Below, one piece after another: positions 18,727-37,404 of a stretch of 40,545 bases of DNA; position 1 is the first letter of the stretch, and each line of letters begins with the position of its first letter. A model generated the notes under the pieces. The model was not told where the DNA came from, made no database searches, and saw nothing but the letters and a program-made list of their open reading frames with translations. The DNA lies in assembly GCA_902528575.1 (NCBI GenBank), contig CABZSV010000006.1, forward strand, positions 1-40,545. The letters are read 5' to 3'. This DNA comes from an uncultured Pelagibacteraceae bacterium. GTDB taxonomy: Bacteria > Pseudomonadota > Alphaproteobacteria > Pelagibacterales > Pelagibacteraceae. The position numbers and the translations under genes are program-made.

Positions 18727-19317
18727 ATGAATGAAAAAGCCCTAGAAAAGATACTAAATATATTTTTAAAAGAAGTTTTACCCTTAACCGAACAAGGTGT
18801 TGCCAAAGGTAGTAAAATATTTGGTGCCGCAATAATTAAAAAAGATGATTTATCTCTTGTAGTTGCAGAAACAAACAATGAAATAGAAAATCCATTGTGG
18901 CATGGTGAGATGCATACTCTTAAAAAATTTTATGAATTAGATGCAAATAAAAGACCAAAAGAAAAAGACTGCATGTTCTTAAGTTCACATGAGCCTTGCA
19001 GTATGTGTTTGAGTGCAATCACATTTTCTGGATTTGATAATTTTTATTATTTGTTTCCGTATACTGCCACAAATGATGAATTTAATATTCCACATGATTT
19101 AAATATACTCAAAGAAGTATTTAAAATTAATGATGGAGAATATAATAAAGAAAATTCATATTGGAAAAGTCAGAATATAAATTTACTTATTGAAAATTTA
19201 CCTTCTTCAAAAAATGAAATTATTTTAAATCAATTAGACGAAATTAAAAAAAAATATCAAAAATTATCAAATCAATATCAGGAAAATAAGGATGGAAATT
19301 CTATACCATTAAATTAA
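18727..19317 (+). CDS. Nucleoside/nucleobase deaminase of the CDA superfamily, substrate unknown
   Basis: This 196-residue zinc hydrolase has the cytidine-deaminase fold: the zinc/proton-shuttle motif HGE (His59, Glu61) and PCSMC (Cys91, Cys94) inside SSHEPCSMCLSAITFSG. It is longer than the guanine deaminase at 25450 and has a distinct C-terminal 70 residues (YWKSQNINLLIENLP..., then a Lys/Gln-rich tail). It is the first gene of the operon with the BMP-type ABC importer (3-nt gap). The imported compound, or a close derivative, is therefore a plausible substrate: an aminated purine or pyrimidine. The exact base cannot be read from sequence. The 126-bp region upstream is AT-rich, and the Shine-Dalgarno is weak. 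Confidence 0.85.
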   Translation: MNEKALEKILNIFLKEVLPLTEQGVAKGSKIFGAAIIKKDDLSLVVAETNNEIENPLWHGEMHTLKKFYELDANKRPKEKDCMFLSSHEPCSMCLSAITFSGFDNFYYLFPYTATNDEFNIPHDLNILKEVFKINDGEYNKENSYWKSQNINLLIENLPSSKNEIILNQLDEIKKKYQKLSNQYQENKDGNSIPLN

Positions 19318-19320
19318 TTA

Positions 19321-20811
19321 ATGAATACAAACCTTAAAATTTCAAATGTAACTAAAATATATCCTGGGTGTGTTGCAAACGACAATATTTCACTCGAATT
19401 TATTAGTGGTAAAATTTATGCTCTTCTTGGAGAAAATGGTGCTGGAAAATCTACACTAGTTAAAATTCTATCAGGAGTCATCATTCCTGACGAAGGTAAA
19501 ATTTATTTAAATGAAAATAATCTAAAGCTTAATTCACCATTAGATGCAAAAAAAAATGATATCGGAATGGTATTCCAGCATTTTAATCTTTTTGAAACTT
19601 TGTCCGTATTTGAAAACTTAATAATAGACTCAGATGAACAAAGGGAAAGTGTAAGAGAAAAAATTGATGCAATTATGAAAAAATATAATTTTTCAATTGA
19701 TCTTGATATTCCTGTTCTAAATCTATCAGCAGGTCAAAAACAGAAAGTGGAAATAATAAGATGCCTAATAAGGAGTCCAAAAGTTTTAATTATGGATGAA
19801 CCAACATCTGTATTAACAGAACAAGAAACGAGTGAATTATTCTTATCGTTGAAAAAATTTTCAGATGAAGGAATTTTAATTATTTATATTACACATAAAC
19901 TAAAGGAAGTTATGCAGCTTTGTGATGAAGTTGCTGTAATGAGAAGAGGAAAGTTAGTTTCTGTAAGTGAAATAAAGAACGAAAATATTGAGTCACTTGC
20001 TAACAAAATGGTGGGTCAGAACCTAAAAACAATTAAGAAAAAAAAGGCAAAAACTTCATCAGATCAATTAATTAAAATAACGAATCTTAATTTTACAAGT
20101 GAAGATCCTTTTGAAACAAATTTAATGGATATTAATTTTTCTGTTAATCGAGGGGAGTGTTTAGGAATTGCTGGTATATCAGGAAACGGACAAAGTGAAT
20201 TATTTCAAGTATTAAGTGGTGAAATTATTTCGGAAAAGAACTCCATAGAATTTAACAATAATTATATAGGAGATTTAAGTCCTCAAGAAAGAAGAGAATA
20301 TTTGATGGCCTTTTCTCCAGAGGATAGGCTTGAGCAGGCTGCAATTCCACAAATGAAAATTTTTGAAAATGTAGCTCTAAACAATTTTAAATCATCAAAT
20401 TTTTTTAATAATGGATTAATAAACGAAAACAAAATTAAAGAACATTCCAAAAAAATAATTTCAGATTTTAATGTTAATACGGACAACGTTGAATTAAAAA
20501 GCCAATTTTTGTCCGGAGGTAATCTTCAAAAATTAATTATTGGAAGAGAATTAATAACATCTCCAGATTTATTAATTTGTTTTAATCCAACTTGGGGTCT
20601 AGATGTTGGAGCAATAAATTATATCCACGAAACATTGATTAAAATCAATGAACAAAATAAATCAATTATATTAATATCTACAGACACTGATGAATTATTA
20701 AAATTAAGTGATAAAATTTCAGTAATTCATAAAGGAAAGTTGTCAAAAATTATGAATTCTGAAGAAGTTACCTCTGAAAAACTTGGGATACTAATGGGAG
20801 GAGCAAATTGA
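19321..20811 (+). CDS. BMP-type ABC importer, double ATP-binding protein
   Basis: This 496-residue protein with two fused ABC domains is the RbsA/YufO-like ATPase of nucleoside/nucleobase importers. Domain 1 has Walker A GENGAGKST (37-45), signature LSAGQKQKVE and Walker B VLIMDEPTS. Domain 2 has the degenerate Walker A GISGNGQSE and signature SGGNLQKLIIGREL, ending in FNPTWGLDVGA in place of the usual ...PTxGLD motif. A weaker second site is normal for this family. The gene is 3 nt after the deaminase and its TGA overlaps the TTG start of the first permease gene. Confidence 0.94.
   Translation: MNTNLKISNVTKIYPGCVANDNISLEFISGKIYALLGENGAGKSTLVKILSGVIIPDEGKIYLNENNLKLNSPLDAKKNDIGMVFQHFNLFETLSVFENLIIDSDEQRESVREKIDAIMKKYNFSIDLDIPVLNLSAGQKQKVEIIRCLIRSPKVLIMDEPTSVLTEQETSELFLSLKKFSDEGILIIYITHKLKEVMQLCDEVAVMRRGKLVSVSEIKNENIESLANKMVGQNLKTIKKKKAKTSSDQLIKITNLNFTSEDPFETNLMDINFSVNRGECLGIAGISGNGQSELFQVLSGEIISEKNSIEFNNNYIGDLSPQERREYLMAFSPEDRLEQAAIPQMKIFENVALNNFKSSNFFNNGLINENKIKEHSKKIISDFNVNTDNVELKSQFLSGGNLQKLIIGRELITSPDLLICFNPTWGLDVGAINYIHETLIKINEQNKSIILISTDTDELLKLSDKISVIHKGKLSKIMNSEEVTSEKLGILMGGAN
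20796..20810 (+). promoter_or_regulatory. Shine-Dalgarno and TTG start of the first permease
   Basis: GGGAGGAG (20796-20803) lies 4 nt before TTG (20808-20810), which overlaps the TGA (20809-20811) of the ATPase gene. The tight Shine-Dalgarno decides the start in favour of the non-ATG codon and implies translational coupling. Confidence 0.7.
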
Positions 20812-21872
20812 TTAAAATCGTAAAAAGAGATCAACCATCAAGAGCTATTTTTTTCTTTACACCCGTATTAGCTATTATTCTAACATTAGTAGCGGGAGGT
20901 TTGATTTTTTTTATTTTAGGTTTTAAACCATTTGAAGCTCTTAAATTTTTTTTCATAGTTCCAATTGCAGATAAATATGGTTTCAGTGAATTACTATTAA
21001 AAGCTACACCTCTTTGTTTAATAGCAATCGGTTTATCTTTTTGTTTTAAAAGTAATAACTGGAATATTGGAGCCGAAGGACAATTAACTTTCGGGGCGAT
21101 AGTTTCTGGAGGAGTTGCATTATTGTTTTATGAGCAAGAAGGATTTTACATTCTTCCAACAGTAATTTTAGCTGGTGCAATCGGTGGTATGCTTTATGCA
21201 TCAATACCCGCAATATTAAAAACTTACTTTAATACAAATGAAATATTAGTAAGTCTTATGTTGGTATATGTCTCAAAATTAATTTTAGACTATCTTGTTG
21301 TTGGCCCTTGGAGTAATCCAGAGGGGTTTAATTTTCCTGAAACTAGACAGTTCAGTGACTCTGCTAAACTTCCGTTGTTATTTGAAGGACTGAGAATTCA
21401 CGCGGGAATATTTTTAGCTTTAGCTGCGGTGGTTATCAGTTGGTTTGTTTTTTATAAAACGTATTTAGGGTTCCAAATGAAAGTTTCGGGTTTTAGTTTA
21501 AAGACAGCAAAATATGCCGGATACAAAGGTAAAAAAATGATCATCCTTGTTTTTCTAATAAGTGGTGCTTGTGCAGGTTTAGCTGGAGTTGGAGAAATAA
21601 CTGGACCTATTGGACAGCTTCATAGAGAAATTTCTCCAGATTATGGTTTTACTGCTATAATTGTAGCGTTTTTGGGTCGTTTACATCCTGTCGGTATTAT
21701 CTTTGCATCTCTAGTCGTTGCAATAACTTATCTGGGTGCTGAGACAGCTCAAATATTTATGCAAATACCTAAATATACTGGTCAGGTTTTTCAAGGAATG
21801 ATTTTATTTTTTCTTCTTGCATCAGATTATTTACTTTTTTTCAAAATTAAATTTATAGGTTTAAAAAAATGA
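20808..21872 (+). CDS. BMP-type ABC importer, permease subunit 1
   Basis: This 354-residue inner-membrane subunit (YufP-like, branched-chain-type ABC permease fold) has about nine to ten hydrophobic segments. Family hallmarks are FKSNNWNIGAEGQLTFGAI (the NIG-x-EGQ motif), NEILVSLMLVYV and SGACAGLAGVGEITG. It starts with TTG overlapping the stop of the ATPase gene, and its own end overlaps the start of permease 2 (ATGA). The set of ATPase, two permeases and binding protein is the complete importer. Confidence 0.93.
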   Translation: MIKIVKRDQPSRAIFFFTPVLAIILTLVAGGLIFFILGFKPFEALKFFFIVPIADKYGFSELLLKATPLCLIAIGLSFCFKSNNWNIGAEGQLTFGAIVSGGVALLFYEQEGFYILPTVILAGAIGGMLYASIPAILKTYFNTNEILVSLMLVYVSKLILDYLVVGPWSNPEGFNFPETRQFSDSAKLPLLFEGLRIHAGIFLALAAVVISWFVFYKTYLGFQMKVSGFSLKTAKYAGYKGKKMIILVFLISGACAGLAGVGEITGPIGQLHREISPDYGFTAIIVAFLGRLHPVGIIFASLVVAITYLGAETAQIFMQIPKYTGQVFQGMILFFLLASDYLLFFKIKFIGLKK

Positions 21873-22801
21873 TCATCGATATAAATTTTATTGGACTGAT
21901 AATTGCATCAATCATGGCCTCCGCTGTTCCTTTAATCCTAGCATCTTGTGGTGAACTGATTACAGAAAGGTCTGGAGTTTTAAACCTTGGTGTTGAAGGA
22001 ATGATGATCATTGGTGCTATTTCAGGTTTCGCATTAATGACTGTTACAGGAAGTTTAATTATTGCAATTTTTGGTGCAATGTTAGCTGGAGTTTTAATTT
22101 CAACTATTTTTGCATTCCTGACGCAAACATTGATCACAAATCATGTTGCTACTGGTTTGGCGCTTACCATATTTGGAATTGGTATTTCTGCGATGATAGG
22201 AAAAAATTTTGTAGGTATTCCTGGAAAAGAGTTTCCTGTTTTATTTGAGGGTTTAAAAGATACAATACCACTTTTAGGTCCAATATTATTTGGACATTCA
22301 ATTGTTTTTTATTTTGCTTTTGCCCTTCCCTTCATAACTAGCTATTTTTTAAAAAAAACGAAAATTGGATTAATTGTAAGAGCTGTAGGAGACTCACCTG
22401 AGTCTGCATCTAATCAAGGAATAAATGTTAGGCTAGTTCGTTACGCTTGTATACTTTATGGAGGCGCAATGAGTGGACTTGCTGGTGCATATTTATCCAT
22501 GATTTATACTCCCCAGTGGATTGAAAATATGACAGGTGGAAGAGGTTGGATCGCATTGGCTCTGGTGGTTTTCTCAACCTGGAATCCTATTAAAATTTTG
22601 ATTGGTGCTATGATTTTTGGTGGGTTAACAATTATTCAATTTCATATGCAAGCAATTGGAGTAAGAATTCCTGTGCAATTTTTAACAGCTCTACCTTACA
22701 TCGTTACAATAATAGTTTTAGTTGTAATTTCTCGTGATAGTAGAAAAATTAGGCTAAGTACTCCTAGTTCTCTGGGGAAATCTTTTCATAAAGACAATTA
22801 A
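21869..22801 (+). CDS. BMP-type ABC importer, permease subunit 2
   Basis: This 310-residue second permease (YufQ-like) has about eight hydrophobic helices. The conserved motifs are GELITERSGVLNLGVEGMM near the N-terminus, the cytoplasmic coupling stretch VRAVGDSPESASNQGINV and GGAMSGLAGAYLSM. It overlaps permease 1 by 4 nt and is followed by a 77-bp AT-rich gap before the binding-protein gene. That gap may hold a separate promoter or an mRNA-processing site raising binding-protein output, but nothing there is decisive. Confidence 0.93.
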   Translation: MIIDINFIGLIIASIMASAVPLILASCGELITERSGVLNLGVEGMMIIGAISGFALMTVTGSLIIAIFGAMLAGVLISTIFAFLTQTLITNHVATGLALTIFGIGISAMIGKNFVGIPGKEFPVLFEGLKDTIPLLGPILFGHSIVFYFAFALPFITSYFLKKTKIGLIVRAVGDSPESASNQGINVRLVRYACILYGGAMSGLAGAYLSMIYTPQWIENMTGGRGWIALALVVFSTWNPIKILIGAMIFGGLTIIQFHMQAIGVRIPVQFLTALPYIVTIIVLVVISRDSRKIRLSTPSSLGKSFHKDN

Positions 22802-22878
22802 TTCTAAAATAATTATTTTTTTTAAGATAATTTAATCTAAATTTAAATAATTAAAAAATCAAAAGGGGAAATAAATTT

Positions 22879-23949
22879 ATGCATAAATTTTTAATTCGAT
22901 CTTTCGTCTCTTCTTTAGTTTTATTATTTACATTAACTGTAGCTGCAGTTGCCAAAGATGTTAAGGCAGCATTTGTTTATATTGGTCCAACTGGTGACCA
23001 TGGATGGACATATCAGCATGATGTAGGTAGAAAAGCTGTTGAAGCTGCCGGATTTAAAACAACTTACGTAGAAGGTGTTCCAGAAAGTGCCGATGCTGAG
23101 AGGGTTCTTAGACAATTAGCTAACTCTGGTCATGATGTTATCTTTACAACTAGTTTTGGATATATGAATCCAACTAACAAAGTTGCAAAAGAATTTCCAA
23201 ATGTAAAATTTGAACATGCTACTGGATACAAAAGAGAACATCCAAATGTTTCAACATACGCAGCTAGATTCTATGAAGGTAGAACTATCTTAGGAACAAT
23301 TGCTGGAACTATGACAAAATCAAATGTTATTGGTTATGTTGCATCTTTTCCAATTCCTGAAGTTATCAGAGGTATCAATTCATTTACTTTAGCAGCTCAA
23401 AAAGTTAACCCAAATATTAAAACTAAAATTGTTTGGGCTTTCACATGGTATGATCCGGGTAAAGAAGCAGAGGCAGCAAAAGCTTTAATCGATCAAGGTG
23501 CTGATGTAATTGCTCAACATACAGATAGTACTGCTATTGTTCAAATGGCTGAAAAAGCTGGAGTATATGCTTTTGGACAAGCAAGTGATATGGACAAGTT
23601 TGCTCCTAAAGCTGTATTAACTTCAGTTGAGAACAATTGGGGACCATATTACGTAGACAGAGTTAAAGCAGTTGCAAATGGTACATGGAGTCAAAAAGAT
23701 ACTTGGCATGGTATTGGAGATGGTATGGTTGTGATATCAGATTTGGACTCACAAATGCCAGCTGATCTGAGATCAAAAGTTAAAAAACTTCAGGCAGATT
23801 TAGCATCTGGAAAAGTTCATTCTTTCACAGGACCAATTTATGACCAAAAAGGTAACTTGATGGTTGCTGAAGGAAAAACTGCAGATGATGGAATGCTTGC
23901 AGGAATGATGACTTACGTTAAAGGTGTTGAAGGAGATATACCTAAGTAA
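22879..23949 (+). CDS. BMP-family periplasmic substrate-binding protein (purine/nucleoside-type)
   Basis: This 356-residue solute-binding protein of the BMP/PnrA family delivers substrate to the importer encoded directly upstream. A Sec signal peptide spans about 1-25 (ending VAAVAKD). There is no lipobox Cys, so it is a free periplasmic protein, unlike the lipoprotein PnrA/TmpC. The family motifs YIGPTGDHGWTYQHDVGR and ASFPIPEVIRGINSF are clear. A good Shine-Dalgarno (AAAAGGGG, 22861-22868) sits 10 nt before ATG. Gene context with deaminases, xanthine dehydrogenase and a phosphoribosyltransferase points to a purine base or nucleoside as ligand. A strong bidirectional terminator follows. Confidence 0.92.
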   Translation: MHKFLIRSFVSSLVLLFTLTVAAVAKDVKAAFVYIGPTGDHGWTYQHDVGRKAVEAAGFKTTYVEGVPESADAERVLRQLANSGHDVIFTTSFGYMNPTNKVAKEFPNVKFEHATGYKREHPNVSTYAARFYEGRTILGTIAGTMTKSNVIGYVASFPIPEVIRGINSFTLAAQKVNPNIKTKIVWAFTWYDPGKEAEAAKALIDQGADVIAQHTDSTAIVQMAEKAGVYAFGQASDMDKFAPKAVLTSVENNWGPYYVDRVKAVANGTWSQKDTWHGIGDGMVVISDLDSQMPADLRSKVKKLQADLASGKVHSFTGPIYDQKGNLMVAEGKTADDGMLAGMMTYVKGVEGDIPK

Positions 23950-23972
23950 TCAGTTTTCAATTTAAAAAATTT

Positions 23973-24002
23973 AAAAGGCCGGTTTTTTAACTGGCCTTTT
24001 TT
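23973..24002. terminator. Shared bidirectional terminator of importer and purine-degradation operons
   Basis: A 12-bp stem (23973-23984 with 23989-24000, one G.T pair) closes a TTTT loop. The core is AAAAGGCC/GGCCTTTT. T runs flank it on both strands (plus 23997-24002; minus, complement of the A run at 23973-23976). It lies between the stop of the BMP gene and the stop of the convergent phosphoribosyltransferase gene, whose last codon touches it. Confidence 0.9.
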
Positions 24003-24525
24003 ATATCTGATGTTTTTTTTTGATTTGTTCAATCCTTAATTCTTCATAAATTTCGAAGGGTTGTACTATCCAAGGATTATCAGGAAGCCTTTTTGCACAG
24101 AAGTCTGGCTCAAATGTTGATTTCTTTTTTTTAAATAATGTTGCAGTTTTAATGTCTTCTATTTTATCCTTAATGGGTTCGTATTTTTTTAACCAATCTA
24201 TACTTTTGTTAAAAGTAATTCCTGTGTCAGATAAATCATCACATAAAAGTATTTTTCCACCCATATTAGGTGCTATCGAACTCATTTCTCTTGAAAACAC
24301 AATATCACCTTGCTCATCCTCTACTCCCTTACCACTGTAAGATTCAACGGCAAGATACGCACATTTTAATTTAAAAATTCTACTTAAAACATCTATCATC
24401 GGCGCTGCTCCACGCATGATGCCGATTAGTATGGTTGGTTTATATCCGCTCTCATCAATTTGGATTGCAAGCTTCTCAACAGTTTTATTGTACTCGTCCC
24501 AGCTGACAATCATTTTTTCAGACAT
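24001..24525 (-). CDS. Purine phosphoribosyltransferase (Gpt/hypoxanthine-guanine type)
   Basis: This 174-residue type I phosphoribosyltransferase joins a 6-oxopurine base to PRPP to give the nucleotide. The PRPP-binding loop is ILLCDDLSDTGIT (92-104), the pyrophosphate loop is GIMRGAAPM (35-43), and the C-terminal base-stacking segment is NPWIVQPFE, as in xanthine-guanine phosphoribosyltransferases. It is the last gene of the minus-strand purine operon, 16 nt after puuD, and provides the salvage branch for the same bases that GuaD and xanthine dehydrogenase would destroy. The precise preference among guanine, xanthine and hypoxanthine is not readable. Confidence 0.88.
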   Translation of the reverse strand: MSEKMIVSWDEYNKTVEKLAIQIDESGYKPTILIGIMRGAAPMIDVLSRIFKLKCAYLAVESYSGKGVEDEQGDIVFSREMSSIAPNMGGKILLCDDLSDTGITFNKSIDWLKKYEPIKDKIEDIKTATLFKKKKSTFEPDFCAKRLPDNPWIVQPFEIYEELRIEQIKKKHQI

Positions 24526-24541
24526 AATTTTTTATATCTAT

Positions 24542-25450
24542 TTATTTAAATAATAAAACTAAAACTGCAAGAACGATAAGTGCTATTATTGAGGATATTA
24601 AAATATACAACCTATGAATGTTTCTCCCTCTTAAATTAAAATAATGTCTTGCTACACCAGAAATAACAGCAATCGCACACAATATTAACCAATTATATTG
24701 ATGATAAACTAAAAAGCTCGAATGCCCTGAAAGCATTATAAACAAAACTAAAAAAGTGGAATAATTATTATGAATTGATCTCTGTTTAGCTGCTAGAGAC
24801 AGACTCATATCAAATTTTTCACCTCTTTCACTACTACTTATTATGTTCATTTGATTAGGTATAATTACCGTGAAAACGTTGCCAAACATATTGGATCCAA
24901 TGATTAATCCAACACTTAAAATTGCAAATTTCGGTCCAAATAATTTTGTAAGTCCAAATGAAACAACTGCTAACAAAATTATTCCTAAGGATATAAATAA
25001 AATATTATTCTCAATTAATTTTGATTTACATAAAAGATCATAAATAAACCAAGCTACAATCAATGATAAAAGCGAAATAATAATAGCATAACTTGGAGGC
25101 ATTAAAAGAACACGCTTATCAACCATCAATACTCCAGCGTTATAATAGTAAATTACAACTAATAGCAACATTCCAGTTACAAAAGTTAAGTAACTTTGCC
25201 ACTTAAAGATTACCAATCTATTTAAGTAATCCTGAGGTGGAGATGTTTTTAACCTTGAAAGTTTGTAAAAAAAACCTGAATGCATCAGATATCCTTCACC
25301 ATCGATATCATCACTTGTTATATTTTTATTTAAATTATTATCTAAGTAATTAAATAAAAAACTATTACCTACCCATAATATTGCAAATAATACATGGCCC
25401 CATCTAAGAATAACTTCTAACCATTTTATTGTATAAGGTAAAAATTCCAT
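24542..25450 (-). CDS. puuD: Membrane urate oxidase PuuD, membrane domain only
   Basis: PuuD oxidises urate to 5-hydroxyisourate at the inner membrane and passes electrons to cytochrome c. The 302-residue protein matches the N-terminal membrane domain of the family: RWGHVLFAILWVGNSF, the HSGFFYKL motif, a SIHNNYSTFLVLFIMLSGH helix pair with conserved His-Asn-Asn, and GVARHYFNLRGR. About eight to nine hydrophobic helices are visible. It stops right after the last helix (ending VLAVLVLLFK), whereas PuuD proteins usually carry a further C-terminal cytochrome c domain with CxxCH. Its ATG overlaps the guaD stop (TAATG). The neighbouring xdh and uraH genes make and consume its substrate and product, which supports the call. 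Confidence 0.9.
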   Translation of the reverse strand: MEFLPYTIKWLEVILRWGHVLFAILWVGNSFLFNYLDNNLNKNITSDDIDGEGYLMHSGFFYKLSRLKTSPPQDYLNRLVIFKWQSYLTFVTGMLLLVVIYYYNAGVLMVDKRVLLMPPSYAIIISLLSLIVAWFIYDLLCKSKLIENNILFISLGIILLAVVSFGLTKLFGPKFAILSVGLIIGSNMFGNVFTVIIPNQMNIISSSERGEKFDMSLSLAAKQRSIHNNYSTFLVLFIMLSGHSSFLVYHQYNWLILCAIAVISGVARHYFNLRGRNIHRLYILISSIIALIVLAVLVLLFK

Positions 25451-25920
25451 TAATATTTTATTTTATCTACTTTTTTATCCCAAATTTCAAATGCTTTTAA
25501 AGCTTCATCTCTGAGCATTTGAACCATTTTAATTTTCCTATCATCAATTTTTTTTGGGATTTCTGTATAAATAAAGGAGTCATCGAAATCTATATTTTTT
25601 GCATCTTCTCTAGTATTTGCATAATATATTTTATCTAATCTTGACCAATAAATTGCTGAGAGACACATCGGACAAGGTTCACAAGATGTATAAATCTCGC
25701 ATCCAGAGAGATCAAAAGTATTTAAATTTTTACAGGCTTCCCTAATTGCTACTATTTCTCCATGAGCAGTTGGATCATTTGAAGAAGTAACTTTATTTGA
25801 ACCCTCTGCAATAATCTTATCATCCTTAACTATAACACTTCCAAAGGGACCGCCAATTGTATTTGCACTATTTATTGAAATTTCAATAGCTTTCGCCATA
25901 AATTTTTTTTTATCTTCCAT
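25450..25920 (-). CDS. guaD: Guanine deaminase
   Basis: This 156-residue zinc deaminase of the CDA superfamily converts guanine to xanthine. The zinc site is HGE (His53, Glu55) and PCPMC (Cys83, Cys86). The C-terminal FDDSFIYTEI segment and the overall length match Bacillus subtilis GuaD (156 residues), which supports guanine rather than tRNA-adenosine as substrate. It sits between xdhB (1-nt gap) and puuD (1-nt overlap), exactly where xanthine supply is needed. Confidence 0.9.
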   Translation of the reverse strand: MEDKKKFMAKAIEISINSANTIGGPFGSVIVKDDKIIAEGSNKVTSSNDPTAHGEIVAIREACKNLNTFDLSGCEIYTSCEPCPMCLSAIYWSRLDKIYYANTREDAKNIDFDDSFIYTEIPKKIDDRKIKMVQMLRDEALKAFEIWDKKVDKIKY

Positions 25921-25921
25921 T

Positions 25922-28225
25922 TTAATTTTTTATTTTATTTTTAATTTTGTTAATGCTCATTAAAATTCTTTCAGGGGTTGCTGGTGCATTTAGTTCTGGT
26001 GCAAACTGATAATTTCCAATTGAAGCAACTGCATCTTTTATTGCATAAAAAACACTCATGGCTAGCATCAAAGGGGGTTCACCAGTTGTTTTTGCTTTAT
26101 TAACAACTTTTTCTTTATTTAATCCTTCTTTAAAAATTTCTACATTAAATTTTTTTGGAATATCACTTACTGCAGGTATTTTGTAAGTCGATGGAGAAAA
26201 AGTTGTAATCTGGCCATCTGATTTCCACTTCAATTCCTCAATTGTAAGCCAACCTTGTCCTTGTACAAAACCGCCCTCTATCTGGCCCAGTTCTAGTGCT
26301 GGATTTATTGGTTTTCCAGCATCATGTAAGATATCCACTCTTTCCAGCATGTTTTCACCAGTCAATGTATCTACAGTTACTTCCGAAACAGCTGCTCCGT
26401 AACAAAAGTAATAAAAAGGTCTTCCTCTAAATTTTTTTTTATCAAAATTAATTTTTGGTGTTGAATAGAAGCCTGATGATGAAAGAGAAATTCTGTTTAA
26501 ATATGCCTCTTGAATTATGCTTTTAAATTCAAATTGTCTGTTTCCAAATATTATGTATTGGTCTTTATAAACTGCCTCTTGATTGTAGATCTTATATTTT
26601 TTCTTAATAAATTTTTCTAAATTCAATTTAATTTTTGCTACTGCATTTAGAGCTGCTGCTCCATTAAGGTCTGTAGTTGATGAAGCGGCGCTAGCTGAAG
26701 TATTTGGAACCTTGGCTGTATTTGTTGATGAGATATGAACTAAATTATATGGTAATCCTAGAGAGTTTGCCACTAATTGAGCAATCTTTGTATGAGTTCC
26801 CTGACCCATTTCAATGCCTCCATGATTCAAATGAACACTTCCATCTGTATAAATATGAACTAAAGCTCCAGCTTGATTTAAGTGAATTGTAGTAAATGAA
26901 ATACCAAATTTTAAAGGTGTAATGGCTATACCTTTCTTTTTAAACTTATTTTTTTCATTAAATTTTCTTATATCCGAATATCTTTTCTTATAATTAGATT
27001 TACTTTCTAAATTTTTAAATATTTCATTAATGACATTATCTTCAACCGTCATTCCATAATGAGTTACATTCTTTTTATCTTTTTGATAAAAATTTTTCTT
27101 TCTAACCTCTATAGGATCTTTTTTTAAATACCTTGCGATATTATCTATAATATTTTCTATAGCCATCATCCCTTGATTACCACCAAATCCTCTAAATGCA
27201 GTTGAGGTTGGAATATTTGTTTTACATAAATTATTTGTTACCTCGATATCTGAAATATAATATGCATTATCTATATGAAGCAAAGCTCTCTCGTTTATTG
27301 CTGCTGATAAATCGGGTGATATTCCACAATTAGAAGATAAATTTAATTTTAGCCCTTCAATGATACCTTCATCATTAAAACCAACTTCATATTCAGATAA
27401 AAATTCATGTCTCTTACCAGTTAAAATTATATCATCATCTCTATCCAATCTTAATTTAACTGGTTGACCTGATTTTCTTGCCAACAATGCACAAATGCAT
27501 GCTGTCATGAAATTTGTTTCCTTTCCTCCAAAACCACCTCCTATTCTTCTAACTTCAACATTTATTGAGTTACTTTTTTGATTAAACATTTTTGCAATTA
27601 ATTGTTGAGTTTCTGATGGATGTTGTGTTGAACTATAAACTAAAAAATTATCATCCTCTTTAGGAACAACAAAAGCTGTCTGGCCCTCTAAATAAAAGTG
27701 CTCTTGGCTTCCAGTTGTAAAATTTCCTTTTAAATTATTTTTTGAATTTTTTATTTTTTTTGAAGGGTTACCTTTTTTAATTTTTCTAGGTTTAAATAAA
27801 AATTGCCTTTTATTTAGAGCTTCTTTAATTGTAATAACAGTTTTTAAATCTTTATAGGTAATTTTGGCTTTTAATACTGCCTTTCTAGCAAGCTCTGTAG
27901 TTGTAGCAGCTACAGCAAATAATGGCTGACCAAAAAACTCAACTTTTTTTTCTGGAAAAATTGGATCACCATCAAAAACTGGACCCACATCATTCCTACC
28001 AGGGATATCTCTTTGAGTAACTATTGATATTACTCCTTCACTTTTTTTTACCTCGGTTAAGTCTATATTTTTGATTATTGCATGGGCTTTTTTGCTTAAA
28101 CCAATAGCGCCATAAATTGTATTTTTTGGTTCATTAATATCATCAGTATACTCTGCATATCCACTTACATGCTTATAGGCACTGTCATGTGGTCTTATTT
28201 CCTCAATATAGTTCTCTTTGCTCAT
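25922..28225 (-). CDS. xdhB: Xanthine dehydrogenase molybdopterin subunit
   Basis: This large subunit binds the molybdenum cofactor and oxidises hypoxanthine to xanthine and xanthine to urate. The 767-residue length matches XdhB of Rhodobacter capsulatus. The key active-site positions known from the bovine and Rhodobacter enzymes are kept: the Glu of GGFGGKE (Glu236), the Arg of TAFRGFGG (Arg345) and the catalytic-base Glu of GEPP (Glu716). The KFGISFT and MGQGTHTKI segments are also present. Purine specificity is therefore well supported, against related aldehyde oxidases. It directly follows xdhA (TAA then ATG, no gap) and precedes guaD. Confidence 0.96.
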   Translation of the reverse strand: MSKENYIEEIRPHDSAYKHVSGYAEYTDDINEPKNTIYGAIGLSKKAHAIIKNIDLTEVKKSEGVISIVTQRDIPGRNDVGPVFDGDPIFPEKKVEFFGQPLFAVAATTTELARKAVLKAKITYKDLKTVITIKEALNKRQFLFKPRKIKKGNPSKKIKNSKNNLKGNFTTGSQEHFYLEGQTAFVVPKEDDNFLVYSSTQHPSETQQLIAKMFNQKSNSINVEVRRIGGGFGGKETNFMTACICALLARKSGQPVKLRLDRDDDIILTGKRHEFLSEYEVGFNDEGIIEGLKLNLSSNCGISPDLSAAINERALLHIDNAYYISDIEVTNNLCKTNIPTSTAFRGFGGNQGMMAIENIIDNIARYLKKDPIEVRKKNFYQKDKKNVTHYGMTVEDNVINEIFKNLESKSNYKKRYSDIRKFNEKNKFKKKGIAITPLKFGISFTTIHLNQAGALVHIYTDGSVHLNHGGIEMGQGTHTKIAQLVANSLGLPYNLVHISSTNTAKVPNTSASAASSTTDLNGAAALNAVAKIKLNLEKFIKKKYKIYNQEAVYKDQYIIFGNRQFEFKSIIQEAYLNRISLSSSGFYSTPKINFDKKKFRGRPFYYFCYGAAVSEVTVDTLTGENMLERVDILHDAGKPINPALELGQIEGGFVQGQGWLTIEELKWKSDGQITTFSPSTYKIPAVSDIPKKFNVEIFKEGLNKEKVVNKAKTTGEPPLMLAMSVFYAIKDAVASIGNYQFAPELNAPATPERILMSINKIKNKIKN

Positions 28226-29662
28226 TTAGTTTACTCTTGATAACTTATTTAAATTTATTTCTACAAAACATTTCATTAATAAATTTTTTGCTATCTCTAA
28301 TCTGTATTCTTTGCTAGCTCTCATGTCTCCAATAGGACTTAAATCTTTTTCTAAATATTTTTGTGCTTGATCAAAAGTATTGATCGTAAGTGGCTTATTT
28401 TTAAGAATTTTTTCACATGCTTTAGCTCTTTTTGGTACAGCAGCCATACCTCCATATGCAATATAAACCTCTTTAATTTTATTATTATTAATCTCAAAAT
28501 TAAAAGATCCACAAACAGATGAAATATCATCATCAAATCTTTTTGAGATCTTAAATGCCTTAAAAATATTTTTCTTAAATAATGGTATTTTAATTGAGTG
28601 TATAAACTCATTGTTTTTTAATTTAGTTTTTCTGTAACCAAGAAAAAAATTATTTAAAGGTAATACTTTTCTTTTATTAAAACTTTCAATTAAAACCTCT
28701 GCATTTAATGAGAGTAAAATTGGTAATGTATCTCCTATTGGAGATGCGGTTGCAATATTGCCACCTATGGTTCCCACATTTCGAATTTGAACAGAACCAT
28801 ATCTCTTAAGAACCGAATAAAAATCTGGATAATGTTTTTTAATTTCTTTTTCAAATTTTATTAAAGGTGTAGCGGAACCAACTTCTAAATAATTTTTACT
28901 TACTTTGATAAAATCTAATTCATTAATTTCTTTTAAATCAATTATAAATGGAATTTCTTTTCTCTCTTTTGTAACTTTTAAAGATAAGTCGGTACCTCCA
29001 GCAAGAAAACTAAAATTAGTATGTTTTTTAATTATACCTTTTAAATCTTTAATATTTTTTGGTGAAAAATAAATCTTATCATCTTTTTTAATATAAATAT
29101 TTTTTGGTTTAATTTTTTTTAATTGCTGAATAATTTTATTTTTATTTTTAGAAAATTGATCATTTTTATTTATTTTATTTAAACTTTTTGCAGCATCAAT
29201 TATAGGTCTATAACCAGTACAACGACATAAATTACCGGATATAGAATCTGATATTAATTCATTATTAAGATTTTTGTTATTTTTAAACATTGAAAATAAC
29301 GACATGACAAATCCTGGTGTGCAGAAACCACATTGAGATCCATGAAATTTCACCATTGCGTCTTGCACCGGATGAAGTTGTCCATTTTTAGAAACTAAAT
29401 CTTCCACAATTATAAGTTGTTTACCATTCAGTGTTGGGACAAACGAAATACAAGAATTAATTGCTTTATATTCAATTTTATTATTGACTAATTCACCTAA
29501 AACAATTGTACATGCACCACAACCACCTTCTGAACATCCCTCTTTAGTTCCGGTCTTTTTTAATTCAGTTCTAATATAATTTAGTAATGTTTGATTTGGA
29601 TCAGGATTTTTGATTACTATAAGCTTATCATTTAATAGAAATTTAACAGAACTCGATATCAC
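28226..29662 (-). CDS. xdhA: Xanthine dehydrogenase FeS/FAD subunit
   Basis: This 478-residue small subunit carries electrons from the molybdenum site to FAD and NAD. The plant-type [2Fe-2S] cluster ligands are Cys43, Cys48, Cys51 and Cys71 (CSEGGCGACT). The second cluster ligands are Cys111, Cys114, Cys146 and Cys148 (QCGFCTPG, NLCRCTG). The FAD domain has FLAGGTDL (219-226) and NVGTIGGN (295-302). The start is GTG (29662-29660), directly after the uraH stop (TAAGTG), with AGAGG about 8 nt upstream inside uraH. No xdhC cofactor-insertion gene is present in this window. Confidence 0.95.
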   Translation of the reverse strand: MISSSVKFLLNDKLIVIKNPDPNQTLLNYIRTELKKTGTKEGCSEGGCGACTIVLGELVNNKIEYKAINSCISFVPTLNGKQLIIVEDLVSKNGQLHPVQDAMVKFHGSQCGFCTPGFVMSLFSMFKNNKNLNNELISDSISGNLCRCTGYRPIIDAAKSLNKINKNDQFSKNKNKIIQQLKKIKPKNIYIKKDDKIYFSPKNIKDLKGIIKKHTNFSFLAGGTDLSLKVTKERKEIPFIIDLKEINELDFIKVSKNYLEVGSATPLIKFEKEIKKHYPDFYSVLKRYGSVQIRNVGTIGGNIATASPIGDTLPILLSLNAEVLIESFNKRKVLPLNNFFLGYRKTKLKNNEFIHSIKIPLFKKNIFKAFKISKRFDDDISSVCGSFNFEINNNKIKEVYIAYGGMAAVPKRAKACEKILKNKPLTINTFDQAQKYLEKDLSPIGDMRASKEYRLEIAKNLLMKCFVEINLNKLSRVN

Positions 29663-30013
29663 TTAACTACCTCTATAAGTAGAATAACTCCAAGGTGAAA
29701 CAAGTAAAGGAACATGATAATGTTGTGAGGGATCTGAAATACCAAATCTTATAACAACATCATCCAAGAATGGTACATCGCTAGCTGAAGATATATTTTT
29801 AAAATAGTCACCAATATGAAAAATTAATTCATATTTACCCTTAATGAAAACATCTCCCTCTGCTAATGGTGAATTAGCTCTACCATCATCATTGAGTTTT
29901 ATTGACGTTAATTTTTTTCGTTCTGAATTATTAATATAAAACAAATCAACTATGATACCTTTGCCAGGTTTACCAGAATACACATCTAAAACATGAGTTG
30001 TGAGCTTTGTCAT
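29663..30013 (-). CDS. uraH: 5-Hydroxyisourate hydrolase (transthyretin-like)
   Basis: This 116-residue enzyme hydrolyses 5-hydroxyisourate, the product of PuuD, to OHCU. It starts with LTTHVLDVYSGKPGKG, the conserved N-terminal histidine motif, and ends in the diagnostic tetrapeptide YRGS. The HYHVPLLVSPW stretch before the end is also conserved. It is the first gene of the minus-strand operon (uraH-xdhA-xdhB-guaD-puuD-phosphoribosyltransferase) and is divergent from uraD, the next enzyme in the pathway. A perfect TATAAT lies just 3 nt before its ATG. Confidence 0.96.
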   Translation of the reverse strand: MTKLTTHVLDVYSGKPGKGIIVDLFYINNSERKKLTSIKLNDDGRANSPLAEGDVFIKGKYELIFHIGDYFKNISSASDVPFLDDVVIRFGISDPSQHYHVPLLVSPWSYSTYRGS

Positions 30014-30060
30014 AAAATTATAGTATCATTTAATTTCAAACTTAAATTTTTAAAAGTTAT
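30014..30060. promoter_or_regulatory. 47-bp divergent control region of the two urate-degradation operons
   Basis: The gap between the uraH and uraD start codons is only 47 bp and almost pure A/T. On the minus strand a perfect -10 hexamer TATAAT (30022-30017) ends 3 nt before the uraH ATG, so the uraH message would begin at or near its start codon. No convincing -35 box, operator palindrome or Shine-Dalgarno is visible for either gene. In such AT-rich sequence a chance TATAAT cannot be excluded. Confidence 0.5.
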
Positions 30061-30558
30061 ATGAGAACAATAGATAACATTAACGATCTTAACAAGTCTG
30101 ATTTTTTGTCTATATTTGGTAATGTTTTTGAAAAAACTGAGTCAGTTGCTATGGAAGCTTTTGAGTTAAAACCATTTAAAAACTTTGAAGATATTGTGTT
30201 TAAAATGCTTGATATTTATGAAAATTACGAAAAAAATAAAATTTTAGAGATTTTAAATGCACATCCTGAGCTTGCTGTAGCAAAAAAAATGACCTCTGAA
30301 TCTATATCAGAACAAGCCTCTGCAAAATTAAACCAATGTTCTAATGATGAATATGAAGAATTTAAAAAATTAAATTCAGAATATAAAAAAAAGTTTAATT
30401 TTCCTTTTATAATTGCTGTAAAAGGCAAAGATAAAAATGAAATTTTGAATAATTTTAGACAAAGAATACAAAGTGATGTAGAAAGTGAATTCCTTGAGGC
30501 GAAAAAACAAGTAAAAAAAATCGCAACCTTTCGTTTGAATGAAATAAATAAAAAATGA
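30061..30558 (+). CDS. uraD: OHCU decarboxylase
   Basis: UraD converts 2-oxo-4-hydroxy-4-carboxy-5-ureidoimidazoline to S-allantoin. The 165-residue all-helical protein has the active-site HPEL motif (His68, Glu70), the SISEQASAKL motif with Glu84-Gln85, and the C-terminal FPFIIAVKG signature. The final KKIATFRLNEI helix is typical. It starts the plus-strand operon uraD-alc-allA-puuE, in which each gene overlaps the next by 4 nt (ATGA). Confidence 0.95.
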   Translation: MRTIDNINDLNKSDFLSIFGNVFEKTESVAMEAFELKPFKNFEDIVFKMLDIYENYEKNKILEILNAHPELAVAKKMTSESISEQASAKLNQCSNDEYEEFKKLNSEYKKKFNFPFIIAVKGKDKNEILNNFRQRIQSDVESEFLEAKKQVKKIATFRLNEINKK

Positions 30559-31541
30559 AAAAATTTATAAGTGCAAAAATGATTAACTTAGCGGATCCAA
30601 GAATTGGATCTAAGGTAATATTTAAGACTGACGATTTTTTTGCGGCTGCTCACAGAATATTAAACATCGAAACTCCAGTTTTTAAAGATGGACTATTTGA
30701 CAAACATGGTAAATGGATGGATGGATGGGAAACAAGGAGAAGAAGATCAAAAGGTTTTGATTATTTAATTTTAAAACTTGGTAAACCTGGAAAGATATTT
30801 GATATAGACATTGACACAACACATTTCAATGGAAATCAGCCCACACATGCTTCGTTAGAGGGTTGCTTAAGTAAAACAAAGCCTAATAAGAAAACAAAAT
30901 GGATTTCTTTACTGAGCAAAAAAAAACTTGGGCCAAGCCGAAACCACAGCTTCAAATCAAGCAACAAATCTGTTTTTAATTATATAAGACTAAACATTTT
31001 TCCGGATGGTGGAGTTGCAAGACTAAGGCTTTATGGAAAAATTGAAATGGAGAAAAACTTTTTAAATCATAAAACTATCAACCTTACTTCTGTTTTAAAT
31101 GGCGCTTCAATTATTGGTTGTAATAATGAACATTTCGGCAGGGCTGAAAATATCATAGCACCTGGTAAAGGAAAAAATATGGGAGATGGTTGGGAAACAA
31201 GAAGAAGTAGAGGAAAAAACTTTGATTGGCTTATAATAAAATTTGGAAAACCAGGATTAATTAAAAAACTAGAGATAGATACCCATCATTTTAAAGGAAA
31301 CTACCCCGATAGTTGTTCAATCCAAACTGCAAGCATTTCAAAAGATCTGTCCAATAAATCAATTGTCAATAATTCAAAAAATTGGAAATTTATTTTAAAT
31401 AAGTCAAAACTGTCAGCTCACAAGAAACATATTTTTAAAAAATTCTTAATTAAGAGAAGTAAAGAAAATTATCTTAAAATAAATATCTATCCAGACGGTG
31501 GAATTTCAAGAATCAGGGCATTTGGAAATTTTGTGAGATGA
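30555..31541 (+). CDS. alc: Allantoicase
   Basis: Allantoicase splits allantoate into S-ureidoglycolate and urea. The 328-residue protein shows the internal duplication of the family: the motif DGWETRRRR at 56-64 recurs as DGWETRRSR at about 212-220, each followed by (N/D)FD(Y/W)LI and a GKPG turn. Both repeats end in a similar sequence (NIFPDGGVARLRLYG and NIYPDGGISRIRAFG). This is the urea-releasing branch, not the ammonia-releasing allantoate amidohydrolase. It overlaps uraD and allA by 4 nt each. Confidence 0.96.
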   Translation: MKKFISAKMINLADPRIGSKVIFKTDDFFAAAHRILNIETPVFKDGLFDKHGKWMDGWETRRRRSKGFDYLILKLGKPGKIFDIDIDTTHFNGNQPTHASLEGCLSKTKPNKKTKWISLLSKKKLGPSRNHSFKSSNKSVFNYIRLNIFPDGGVARLRLYGKIEMEKNFLNHKTINLTSVLNGASIIGCNNEHFGRAENIIAPGKGKNMGDGWETRRSRGKNFDWLIIKFGKPGLIKKLEIDTHHFKGNYPDSCSIQTASISKDLSNKSIVNNSKNWKFILNKSKLSAHKKHIFKKFLIKRSKENYLKINIYPDGGISRIRAFGNFVR

Positions 31542-32029
31542 AAATAATAAAAGCAAAAAAAATTACTAAAAAAAATTTTTCTAAATTTGGTCAATTAATA
31601 GATACGTCAAAAAAAAATCCTATAAATATTAATGATGGGTATGCAAAAAGATTTGATAATTTGATAAACGTAGATGCATCTAAAAACAAAGGGAAAGCAA
31701 TTGTTAGTATTTTTAAAGCAAAAAAAAGAAGGTTTCCTATGAAAATCGATATGATGGAAAAACATCCTTTAGGAAGCCAGGCCTTTATACCAATGGAAGA
31801 TACAAAATTTTTAGTATTTGTAGCACCAAAAGGAGATAAACCAGATGTAAATAAAATCCAATCCTTTTTAGTCCCAAAACAAACTGGAGTTAATTACAAT
31901 GCTGGTATTTGGCACTTTCCGTTGATTTCTATGAAAAATATGAATTTTCTAATTGTTGATAGAAAAGGAAAAGGAAACAATCTTGTTATTTATAAATTTA
32001 AAAAAGATAAAATTATTTTGAAAAAATGA
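31538..32029 (+). CDS. allA: Ureidoglycolate lyase
   Basis: AllA cleaves ureidoglycolate to glyoxylate and urea, the last step of the pathway. The 163-residue cupin-like protein has the family segments KFGQLIDT near the N-terminus, EKHPLGSQAFIPM in the middle and GVNYNAGIWHFPL near the C-terminus, where the His motifs lie. The N-terminal 30 residues are strongly lysine-rich, as often in this genome. It sits in the 4-nt-overlap chain alc-allA-puuE. Confidence 0.94.
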   Translation: MKIIKAKKITKKNFSKFGQLIDTSKKNPININDGYAKRFDNLINVDASKNKGKAIVSIFKAKKRRFPMKIDMMEKHPLGSQAFIPMEDTKFLVFVAPKGDKPDVNKIQSFLVPKQTGVNYNAGIWHFPLISMKNMNFLIVDRKGKGNNLVIYKFKKDKIILKK

Positions 32030-32925
32030 AAAAAAAATACCCAAGAGATTTAGTGGGATATGGTTCCAAAAAAGTTAAGGTAAAGTGGCCTGGTAATGCT
32101 AAGTTAGCTTTGCAATTTGTACTTAATTACGAGGAGGGAGCAGAAAATTGTACTCTTCATGGTGATAAAACTTCAGAAGTATTTTTATCAGAAATTATAG
32201 GAGCAAAACCAATTAAAGGTCGACACTTAAATATGGAATCAATTTATGAATATGGATCAAGAAGAGGGTTTTGGAGAATTCATGATCTATTTAATAAAAA
32301 GAAAATTCCACTTACTATTTTTGGAGTTGGTATGGCATTGGAAAGAAATAAAGAAGTTTGTTCGGCTATAAAAAAAGCAAATTATGAAGTTGCAAGTCAT
32401 GGGTGGAGATGGATTGACTATCAAAATGTATCAAAGAAAAAAGAAAAAAATGATATGCAGCTTGCAGTCAAATCTATAAAAAAGATATTTGGTAATCAAC
32501 CTGCTGGTTGGTACACCGGTAGATGTAGCGAAAATACTTTAGATTTAGTAATTGATAATGGTAGTTTTTTATACTGTAGCGATACATACAGTGACGATCT
32601 TCCTTACTGGATAAAAAAAGGTAATAAAAAACAACTAATGGTTCCTTACACACTTGATAACAATGATATGAGGTTTGCAACCAATCAAGGATTTAATTCA
32701 GGTGAACAATTTTATAATTATTTAAAAGATAGTTTCGATGCCCTTTATGAGGAGGGAAAAACTTCACCTAAGATGATGTCGGTTGGTTTGCATTGTAGAT
32801 TAATTGGAAGACCTGGTAGAATACAGTCTCTTAAAAAATTTTTAAATTACATCACAAAATTTAAAGATATTTGGATCTGCAAAAGAGTAGATATAGCTAA
32901 ACATTGGATAAAAAATTACAGTTAA
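32026..32925 (+). CDS. puuE: Allantoinase PuuE (polysaccharide-deacetylase fold)
   Basis: PuuE hydrolyses allantoin to allantoate. It belongs to the NodB/polysaccharide-deacetylase fold and is unrelated to the amidohydrolase-type AllB. The 299-residue protein starts with the diagnostic YPRDLVGYG motif and continues with LNYEEGAEN, ESIYEYGSRRGFWRI, YEVASHGWRWIDY (SHG(W/Y)RW) and PAGWYTGRCSENT. Together with UraH and UraD it completes conversion of urate to allantoate. It ends the operon and is convergent with the cytochrome c gene, with a 7-nt gap and no hairpin. Confidence 0.95.
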   Translation: MKKKYPRDLVGYGSKKVKVKWPGNAKLALQFVLNYEEGAENCTLHGDKTSEVFLSEIIGAKPIKGRHLNMESIYEYGSRRGFWRIHDLFNKKKIPLTIFGVGMALERNKEVCSAIKKANYEVASHGWRWIDYQNVSKKKEKNDMQLAVKSIKKIFGNQPAGWYTGRCSENTLDLVIDNGSFLYCSDTYSDDLPYWIKKGNKKQLMVPYTLDNNDMRFATNQGFNSGEQFYNYLKDSFDALYEEGKTSPKMMSVGLHCRLIGRPGRIQSLKKFLNYITKFKDIWICKRVDIAKHWIKNYS

Positions 32926-32932
32926 ATTTTTA

Positions 32933-33256
32933 TTATTGTTCAGCAGCTATAGAGGTATAGTGCGCAACTGCTTCTATTTCATCATCAGTTAGTATACCCT
33001 CCATTGCGGGCATTACTCCTATACCGTTTCTAACTGCCATTAAGATTCTTTGAATATCAGGTCTAATTTCATTTAAATTTGGACCAACCATTGCATTCGA
33101 TCCAGCATCTGAGAGCATATGACATGCTGCACAATTTCCAGTACCCAGAAAAACTTCTTTTCCCTTATTAAACAATTCATCAGCATTAGCATGGGTAAAT
33201 GATAAAAGTATCAAAAATAATGATATACCAAAGAAATTTAAAAATAATTTTTTCAC
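32933..33256 (-). CDS. Small periplasmic class I cytochrome c
   Basis: This 107-residue precursor has a Sec signal peptide (MKKLFLNFFGISLFLILLSF, cut near THANA). It has one haem motif CAACH (Cys42, Cys45, His46) and a probable distal ligand Met82 in GVMPAM. The DDEIEAVAHYTSI end is typical of soluble cytochrome c domains. It is a single-domain electron carrier. Because PuuD in this locus lacks its usual cytochrome c domain, this protein may be its electron acceptor, but it is transcribed separately and lies 7.5 kb away. It could equally serve another respiratory step. Confidence 0.92.
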   Translation of the reverse strand: MKKLFLNFFGISLFLILLSFTHANADELFNKGKEVFLGTGNCAACHMLSDAGSNAMVGPNLNEIRPDIQRILMAVRNGIGVMPAMEGILTDDEIEAVAHYTSIAAEQ

Positions 33257-33299: not shown

Positions 33300-33587
33300 A
33301 TGAAAGCTTATTGGGTTGCAAATTATACTGAAATAAAAGACGACGAAAGACTTAAAAAATATGCTGTTAAAGCAAAAGAAGCGGTTGAAAAATATTCTGG
33401 AAAAATAATAGCGAGAAGTGCAAATAACGTAACTTTAGAAGGCAGAGAAATGGTTAGAGTAGCACTTGCAGAATTTCCAGATATTGAAACAGCAAAAAAT
33501 TGTTACAATTCCGAAGAGTATGTTGAAGCTAGAAAACATTTGGAAAATAATGCTACTAGAGAACACATAATTTTTGAAGGAATGTAA
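33300..33587 (+). CDS. DUF1330 family protein
   Basis: This 95-residue ferredoxin-like alpha/beta-barrel protein has the DUF1330 pattern: KAYWVANYTEI at the N-terminus, a mid-protein strand GKIIARSANNVTLEG, and the FPDIETAKNCYNSEEY motif. Members are dimeric and of unknown role. It has a good Shine-Dalgarno (AAGGAG, 33290-33295) and sits at the edge of the purine locus, divergent from the cytochrome c gene over 43 bp. A link with purine use is possible but not shown. Confidence 0.88.
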   Translation: MKAYWVANYTEIKDDERLKKYAVKAKEAVEKYSGKIIARSANNVTLEGREMVRVALAEFPDIETAKNCYNSEEYVEARKHLENNATREHIIFEGM

Positions 33588-37400: not shown

Positions 37401-37404
37401 TTAA

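Follow-up and report, generated by a model that had tools for sequence, protein, structure and literature searches.

A PuuD without a cytochrome domain and a separate cytochrome gene in the purine-catabolism locus of SAR11: a candidate two-component urate oxidase

What would carry the electrons away from urate if the urate oxidase PuuD lacked its cytochrome? The question is raised by a contig from an uncultured Pelagibacteraceae bacterium (CABZSV010000006.1 of assembly GCA_902528575.1), all 40,545 nt of which are here called the window; the source genome assembly is 980 kb long and 75% complete. The window holds a locus for purine import, salvage and oxidation. A preliminary description of this DNA had named the genes of the locus, and open reading frames (ORFs) with Pfam and NCBIfam matches find each of them at the place and in the order given. 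The locus is real and was correctly read, and the organism group (SAR11), the pathway, the salvage branch and the tight arrangement were rightly recognised as well. Two matters were passed over, as follows. The protein given the plain label puuD lacks a cytochrome c domain, and the last ORF of the range described, where the locus ends, is a cytochrome c gene (32933–33256) that was left unnamed.

As a pathway, the locus is the already known purine-catabolism cluster of SAR11. Haro-Moreno et al. (2020; PMC7318151) described genes for aerobic purine degradation that are clustered in a SAR11 genomic island, and Braakman et al. (2025; PMC11698098), who discuss the use of energy, carbon and nitrogen and cryptic nitrogen cycles, found most of the operon genes in about 18–22% of SAR11 genomes, with NADH, glyoxylate and urea as the products of the cluster. 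The legend of their Fig. 3 lists an NCS2 permease, purine deaminases 1 and 2, an ABC transporter, a phosphoribosyltransferase, PuuD, the Mo and FAD subunits of xanthine dehydrogenase (XDH), hiuH, uraD, alc, ugl and PuuE. The window comes from the same organism group and has the same gene list, with uptake, deaminase, XDH, PuuD, hiuH, uraD, alc, ugl and PuuE genes all together. In contrast to what we describe here, gene f of that legend is a plain urate oxidase (PuuD), no cytochrome is listed in the legend, and the word “cytochrome” occurs 0 times in the main text. Offshore genera that oxidise purines are named in a further paper (ISME J 2025; PMC12636525), in which, as in PMC8437039, puuD is the name of a polyamine gene. 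Within the portions of the literature that our search retrieved, we found no report of a tail-less PuuD, or of its cytochrome, in SAR11. The trait, which had been offered as specific to a strain and its niche, is instead a published, recurrent and flexible one (PMC7318151; PMC11698098). What has been overlooked is that the part of the urate oxidase that carries electrons appears, from the sequences compared here, to be a separate, unrelated cytochrome.

PuuD without its C-terminal cytochrome

PuuD was shown by gene deletion to be the urate oxidase of Agrobacterium fabrum. Doniselli et al. (2015; PMC4562309), who argue for cytochrome-mediated electron transfer, describe it as DUF989 followed by a C-terminal cytochrome c; they state that full-length DUF989 proteins carry that domain, which they term invariant. 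The puuD of the SAR11 locus is not a normal PuuD. Genomes were sampled from the genus (121) and the order (197), with the source genome in both, and further samples were drawn from the class and the phylum. Counting as a true PuuD any match to at least 228 of the 295 positions of the PF06181 profile, the protein is found in 31 of the 121 genus genomes and 26 of the 197 order genomes, 53 of them distinct. All 47 SAR11 copies read have open frames of 299–306 aa with no C-terminal cytochrome c (CXXCH, distal Met). A scan of genome contigs gave 215 PuuD-encoding stretches; in each of the best 80, which are 96–100% identical and are here called the named loci, a TAA codon stands directly after residue 302, the end of the match. 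The titles of the named loci are Pelagibacteraceae, with one Candidatus Pelagibacter ubique, and two near-identical full gene strings account for 40 of them; those with AG- names we take to be single-cell genomes.

The class sample holds 90 near-full-profile hits (E < 1e-80; the count leaves out G353, with E 4e-35 and an 842-aa frame). The frames are at least 395 aa long in 88 of these, and the two short ones belong to the source genome and to G248, a class-mate from outside the SAR11 order. Frames of at least 399 aa are likewise found in 117 of the 118 full-length hits of the phylum sample, the source genome being the exception and G900, whose frame is cut by a contig end, being left out. With 12 genomes common to the two samples, 193 of 194 distinct full-length hits outside SAR11 are long, G248 being the exception. 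Frame length is a proxy for the fused tail; of the 88 long class loci, 30 were read, and each has CXXCH.

By its PF06181 match the window PuuD is a full-length DUF989 protein. It shares with the fused PuuDs of A. fabrum and other proteobacteria (PMC4562309) the full-length domain, the conserved histidines and the link to purine genes, and SAR11 PuuD lies in a genomic context with 5-hydroxyisourate (HIU) hydrolase and OHCU decarboxylase. Unlike them, it is without the C-terminal cytochrome c that marks the PuuD family, and it is 32–38% identical to the 20 fused relatives aligned. In 27 fused PuuDs, 65 DUF989 positions are near-invariant. The SAR11 copies, 47 of 47, retain 42 of them, and seven more are partly retained; the four near-invariant histidines, His 19, 57, 227 and 243, are kept in all 47. 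The structure model of the window PuuD has eight long helices (mean pLDDT 79). In a tree, a very long branch splits the SAR11 PuuDs from the fused ones; the tree cannot be rooted, so whether the fused or the tail-less form came first is not readable from it. A search of PDB sequences with the window PuuD gave no credible match, nor did Foldseek find any at E <= 0.001 with the tail-less model. A second fold comparison placed 9ivk (“tmFAP”, Z 10.0) and soluble bundles at the top, none of them convincing. Seven cytochrome bd oxidase entries were found at Z 6.2–7.3 with most of the PuuD length aligned, which for a helical bundle may be a mere common arrangement.

The separate cytochrome and its neighbourhood

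Read by eye, the product of the cytochrome gene has a hydrophobic start, a CAACH motif and a distal Met-Pro, which are typical of exported c-type cytochromes. The nearest solved relative is chain B of PDB entry 4pw9, which we take to be the SorT/SorU sulfite dehydrogenase. Since the other chain of 4pw9 is a sulfite oxidase, a cytochrome of this type serves as the partner of an oxidoreductase. The locus cytochrome resembles SorU in being a small c-type cytochrome, and may likewise partner an oxidoreductase. Unlike SorU, it falls under the NCBIfam SorU cut-off (84.1 bits vs 100), and its gene belongs to a urate locus; its neighbours in the window include no SorT-type sulfite oxidase gene.

Could the free cytochrome be the cut-off tail of PuuD, the product of gene fission? 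A hidden Markov model of 27 fused PuuD cytochrome domains gives the standalone cytochromes 2.5–10.6 bits, as against 108–138 for its training members, and in a tree the fused domains and the standalone cytochromes are separated by a 100/100 branch. Fission is rejected by these scores and this split. The standalone cytochrome is of a different family and, as judged from its sequence, is not the PuuD tail itself but its likely replacement.

The cytochrome and PuuD occur together. We took at least 53% identity as the mark of a close homologue of the cytochrome. Such homologues (53–99%) are found in 29 of the 121 genus genomes, and 27 of the 29 carry PuuD; 4 genomes have PuuD only, 2 the cytochrome only and 88 neither (Fisher p 2e-20). 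The order sample has close homologues (54–99%) in 21 of its 197 genomes, all 21 with PuuD, next to 5 genomes with PuuD only, 0 with the cytochrome only and 171 with neither (Fisher p 7e-24). A close homologue is present in 47 genomes over both samples. PuuD is encoded in 45 of these genomes, 43 of which have the homologue inside the PuuD locus. In the four PuuD genomes of the genus sample without a close homologue (G015, G022, G052 and G103) the contigs stop short of the expected site; those of the order sample are G022 and G649, with contig ends, and G568, G611 and G623.

A locus is informative when its far side is assembled, which holds for 27 loci of the genus sample and 21 further ones of the order sample. 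The cytochrome is present in 43 of these 48; 14 of the 43 rest on coordinates on one contig, the DNA being unread, and in two (G071 and G115) the locus is split over two contigs, with the cytochrome adjoining puuE on the second. Among the 80 named loci it is found in 60, and the remaining 20 have less than 6 kb on that side; one of these 20, with the flank genes inverted directly before xdhA, is a probable chimera.

Which half of the pathway does the cytochrome follow? The genes alc-allA-puuE are missing from 11 loci (G001, G023, G030, G065, G073, G101, G568, G611, G623, G668 and G674), and in eight of them the cytochrome directly adjoins uraD, the other three being without it. In five of the six such loci in the genus sample, alc is on another contig. 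No CXXCH ORF of 60–199 aa occurs in ten puuE-alc loci at other sites (six in PuuD genomes, four in genomes without PuuD; some cut by contig ends). Since it stands beside uraD in eight of the 11 loci and not in the ten separate allantoin loci, the cytochrome follows the urate half of the pathway; a tie to the allantoin genes is rejected by both sets of loci. A DUF1330 gene flanks the cytochrome gene in the window, and a DUF1330-like match is seen on that flank also in the five informative loci without the cytochrome.

A proposed electron path and its rivals

From these observations we infer a two-component urate oxidase, in which a tail-less DUF989 protein would oxidise urate and a separate SorU-type cytochrome would take the electrons to respiration. 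On balance we favour this proposal, though with no great confidence. It would work as follows. Purines would enter through the NCS2 permease and the BMP-type ABC importer, and the deaminases would yield xanthine and hypoxanthine, which XdhAB would convert in the cytoplasm to urate with formation of NADH. The tail-less DUF989 membrane protein would oxidise urate, two electrons leaving across the membrane. The SorU-type cytochrome c, presumably exported, would accept them on the outward-facing side of the membrane and deliver them to the respiratory chain and on to its terminal oxidase, in place of the cytochrome domain that other PuuDs carry as a fusion. UraH and UraD would turn the product of urate oxidation into allantoin, and PuuE, Alc and AllA would take allantoin to glyoxylate and two urea. 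The phosphoribosyltransferase would provide a salvage branch, and a urease elsewhere in the genome could free ammonia from the urea.

The split is of interest since it is unsettled what the cytochrome does in PuuD: respiratory electron transfer is favoured over superoxide scavenging, and azide inhibition was inconclusive (Doniselli et al. 2015; PMC4562309). A natural PuuD with a separate cytochrome would let the cytochrome be added or removed, deciding its role. If the proposal is true, purine use in SAR11 would have a second energy-yielding step beyond the NADH named by Braakman et al. (2025; PMC11698098), and urate would be oxidised without hydrogen peroxide and with its energy conserved.

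Several observations weigh against the proposed partnership. The Fisher p values overstate independence, because relatives are one lineage. The cytochrome gene is convergent with puuE (not one operon) and lies about 5–8 kb from puuD. Five of the 48 informative loci are without it. In two of the genomes concerned, G066 and G084, a close homologue is found away from the locus with AprA/AprB-like, TauE or Xsc-like genes as neighbours, and the other three, G568, G611 and G623, have only a 43–46% paralogue. A close homologue also lies beside sulfur-type genes in two genomes without PuuD (G020 and G053, 55 and 58% complete).

G248 adds to these. Its 303-aa PuuD, a second candidate for a tail-less urate oxidase, consists of DUF989 only, as in SAR11, and comes directly after uraH (L132 8902–10179); its UraH is 48% identical to the window UraH; the 19.9 kb read also holds an AllA-like match and a CobW/HypB/UreG gene. 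Unlike SAR11, no CXXCH is found in the six frames of these 19.9 kb, and in the tree the G248 PuuD sits on a long branch on the side of the fused proteins. This suggests that the tail was perhaps lost more than once. It also means that a cytochrome gene need not adjoin that of a tail-less PuuD, which somewhat weakens the partnership and favours electron transfer to a general pool.

That rival holds that the locus is the known purine cluster, that tail-less PuuD feeds the general cytochrome c pool, and that the cytochrome of the locus serves some other purpose or is one acceptor among several. The five loci without the cytochrome, G248, and the four genomes with a close homologue beside sulfur-type genes all agree with it. 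A general pool would not, however, lead one to expect PuuD in 45 of the 47 genomes that have a close homologue, which in 43 of the 45 lies in the PuuD locus itself, nor a cytochrome that keeps to uraD in eight of 11 loci and stays out of the ten allantoin loci elsewhere. We regard this rival as unlikely, though well short of negligible.

Much less probable is that the SAR11 tail-less DUF989 protein is not a urate oxidase but a carrier or an inactive relic, urate being oxidised by another protein or excreted. The low identity to fused PuuDs and the long separating branch, given above, would fit this, as would 16 near-invariant DUF989 positions that are changed in all 47 SAR11 copies and that count against our proposal too. 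However, the complete loci read place puuD in the run phosphoribosyltransferase-puuD-deaminase-xdhB-xdhA-uraH beside uraD, and the four histidines are kept throughout. The least probable explanation, and one largely refuted, is that the cytochrome is part of the allantoin half or of the flank (DUF1330, HhH-GPD), its presence being positional: in the window it does stand between puuE and the flank, divergent from the DUF1330 gene, but CXXCH ORFs are absent from the ten puuE-alc loci at other sites, and the loci of G066, G084, G568, G611 and G623 keep the flank without it.

It is tempting to extend the two-component urate oxidase, its free SorU-type cytochrome feeding respiration, to an exchangeable shuttle, with the same cytochrome family serving at urate, sulfite (SorT-like) and APS-reductase-type loci in these streamlined cells; we give this wider proposal slightly less than even odds. 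In G568 and G611 the paralogue adjoins a MoaA gene and a SorT-like gene (L179 7809–9380 and L180 5687–7259). The SorT-like gene of L179, to which the Pfam and PDB comparisons apply, has the sulfite oxidases 4pw3/4pw9 as its nearest solved relatives, and the paralogue there stands beside a SorT-type sulfite oxidase, as a SorU-type cytochrome does; the gene in L180 is similar-looking. A close homologue of the cytochrome is seen beside APS-reductase-like, TauE or Xsc-like genes in loci L092, L093, L094 and L096 (G020, G053, G066 and G084), a hint of one cytochrome type serving several SAR11 oxidoreductases. The names AprA, AprB and Xsc are those that we assume for these neighbours; Pfam gives FAD_binding_2 with Succ_DH_flav_C, TauE and TPP enzyme domains for three such genes in L092 and L094.

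Gene content and variation of the locus

The features of the locus are collected in Table 1.

Table 1. Features of the purine locus, with positions in the window, strand and the matches on which each name is based.
Feature	Position	Strand	Evidence
NCS2 xanthine/uracil-type permease	16834..18156	-	PF00860 303 bits; NCBIfam ncs2 above cut-off; pbuX 408.7 vs cut-off 414, just under
Second deaminase (zinc deaminase fold, substrate unsure)	18727..19317	+	PF00383 40.7 bits; no NCBIfam match; nearest PDB guanine deaminase chains, weak, E 2e-6
ABC importer ATPase, BMP/nucleoside type	19321..20811	+	best of 186 NCBIfam families is putative B6 transporter ATPase; listed matches all below cut-off
ABC importer permease 1	20808..21872	+	NCBIfam, below cut-off
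ABC importer permease 2	21869..22801	+	NCBIfam, below cut-off
BMP-type periplasmic binding protein	22879..23949	+	nearest PDB 3s99 E 1e-119; 6pi5 (atrazine periplasmic binding protein) E 3e-109
Inverted repeat, probable terminator between convergent operons	23973..24000		12-pair stem, T tail on + strand
Purine phosphoribosyltransferase (salvage; substrate unsure)	24001..24525	-	PF00156 95.7 bits; nearest PDB purine phosphoribosyltransferase GpT-2 E 1e-10
Tail-less PuuD, putative DUF989 urate oxidase membrane domain only	24542..25450	-	PF06181 283.6 bits, profile 2-293 of 295; no cytochrome c domain
Guanine deaminase-like GuaD (deaminase 1)	25450..25920	-	nearest PDB guanine deaminase 1wkq/1tiy, E 4e-48, residues 5-155
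Xanthine dehydrogenase molybdenum subunit XdhB	25922..28225	-	TIGR02965 1110 bits vs cut-off 849.5
Xanthine dehydrogenase FeS/FAD subunit XdhA	28226..29662	-	TIGR02963 585 bits vs cut-off 467
HIU hydrolase UraH	29663..30013	-	TIGR02962 123 bits vs cut-off 87
Divergent intergenic region, 47 bp	30014..30060		gene coordinates
OHCU decarboxylase UraD	30061..30558	+	TIGR03164 161 bits vs cut-off 96
Allantoicase Alc	30555..31541	+	TIGR02961 392 bits vs cut-off 278
Ureidoglycolate lyase AllA	31538..32029	+	PF04115 168.5 bits vs cut-off 23
Allantoinase PuuE	32026..32925	+	TIGR03212 486 bits vs cut-off 425
Small c-type cytochrome, probably exported (CAACH, SorU-like)	32933..33256	-	PF13442 45 bits; nearest PDB 4pw9_B E 2e-19
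DUF1330 gene, divergent from cytochrome gene	33300..33587		flank of locus

NCBIfam equivalog cut-offs are passed by six proteins, XdhB, XdhA, UraH, UraD, Alc and PuuE; AllA stays below each of the eight ureidoglycolate lyase cut-offs of NCBIfam among the matches listed. For both deaminases, the phosphoribosyltransferase and the transporters, the matches give the family and not the substrate. The preliminary description had set the range of the locus at 18727–33256, and its genes do lie inside; the NCS2 permease is also part of the locus, which thus starts before 18727. The 47-bp divergent gap is as described. For the bidirectional terminator reported at 23973–24002, the stem is there, and the terminator scan scored it on the + strand only; terminator-like sites in the region are rarer than in its shuffles (3 vs a mean of 6.1). 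That the repeat acts in both directions is plausible. A riboswitch search found no Rfam match at the gathering score within the window.

A missing molybdenum cofactor was considered as an objection to XDH and rejected, since a MoaA-type gene (PF06463, the sole cofactor gene family searched) is present in the source genome. Of the 53 PuuD-bearing genomes known, 41 were tested; 33 of these have such a gene, including 13 of 13 at >=90% completeness, vs 8 of 14 genomes without PuuD (p 0.016). Glyoxylate and urea had been given as the end of the pathway; the enzymes for this are present, but urea need not be the end, since urease alpha is encoded in the same genome (G000:C35). Urease alpha is above the cut-off in 18 of the 41 PuuD-bearing genomes tested, the source included, and in 0 of the 14 without PuuD; among the latter, G521 gives a match below the cut-off.

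A comparison of the locus across SAR11, which had been advised, finds that the order recurs and that the flanks are kept in distant relatives too, with hsp20 and prolyl oligopeptidase on one side and HhH-GPD, EamA, msrA and sseA on the other. Misassembly, raised earlier as a doubt, is unlikely because further assemblies from the group show the same gene order. The gene set is not constant, however. Besides the loci without alc-allA-puuE, the ABC importer is missing from nine genus-sample loci (L062–L066, L068 and L088–L090) and six order-sample loci (L171–L176), and in L066 a Xan_ur_permease gene is found in its place. A second type of SAR11 allantoin locus has the order puuE-alc-allA (L273–L282). 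In the two whose ORFs were listed, L273 and L277, these genes are near a permease gene of NCS1 type, matched by Pfam Transp_cyt_pur in L273 and similar-looking in L277.

Towards the ends of the contig, judging from their translations, lie what we take to be GroEL-like and TypA-like genes (55–3509) and an RND-type efflux pair (36405–40527). Elsewhere in the source genome, a frame of about 200 aa covers only about positions 174–237 of PF06181 (G000:C13:2194-2385), and by match counts such frames occur in 97 of the 121 genus genomes. Among the 90 genus genomes other than those with a true PuuD, 68 have a short PF06181 match only, mostly of 64–91 positions and in a frame of about 200 aa. These frames may be the short DUF989 variant of Doniselli et al. 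(2015; PMC4562309).

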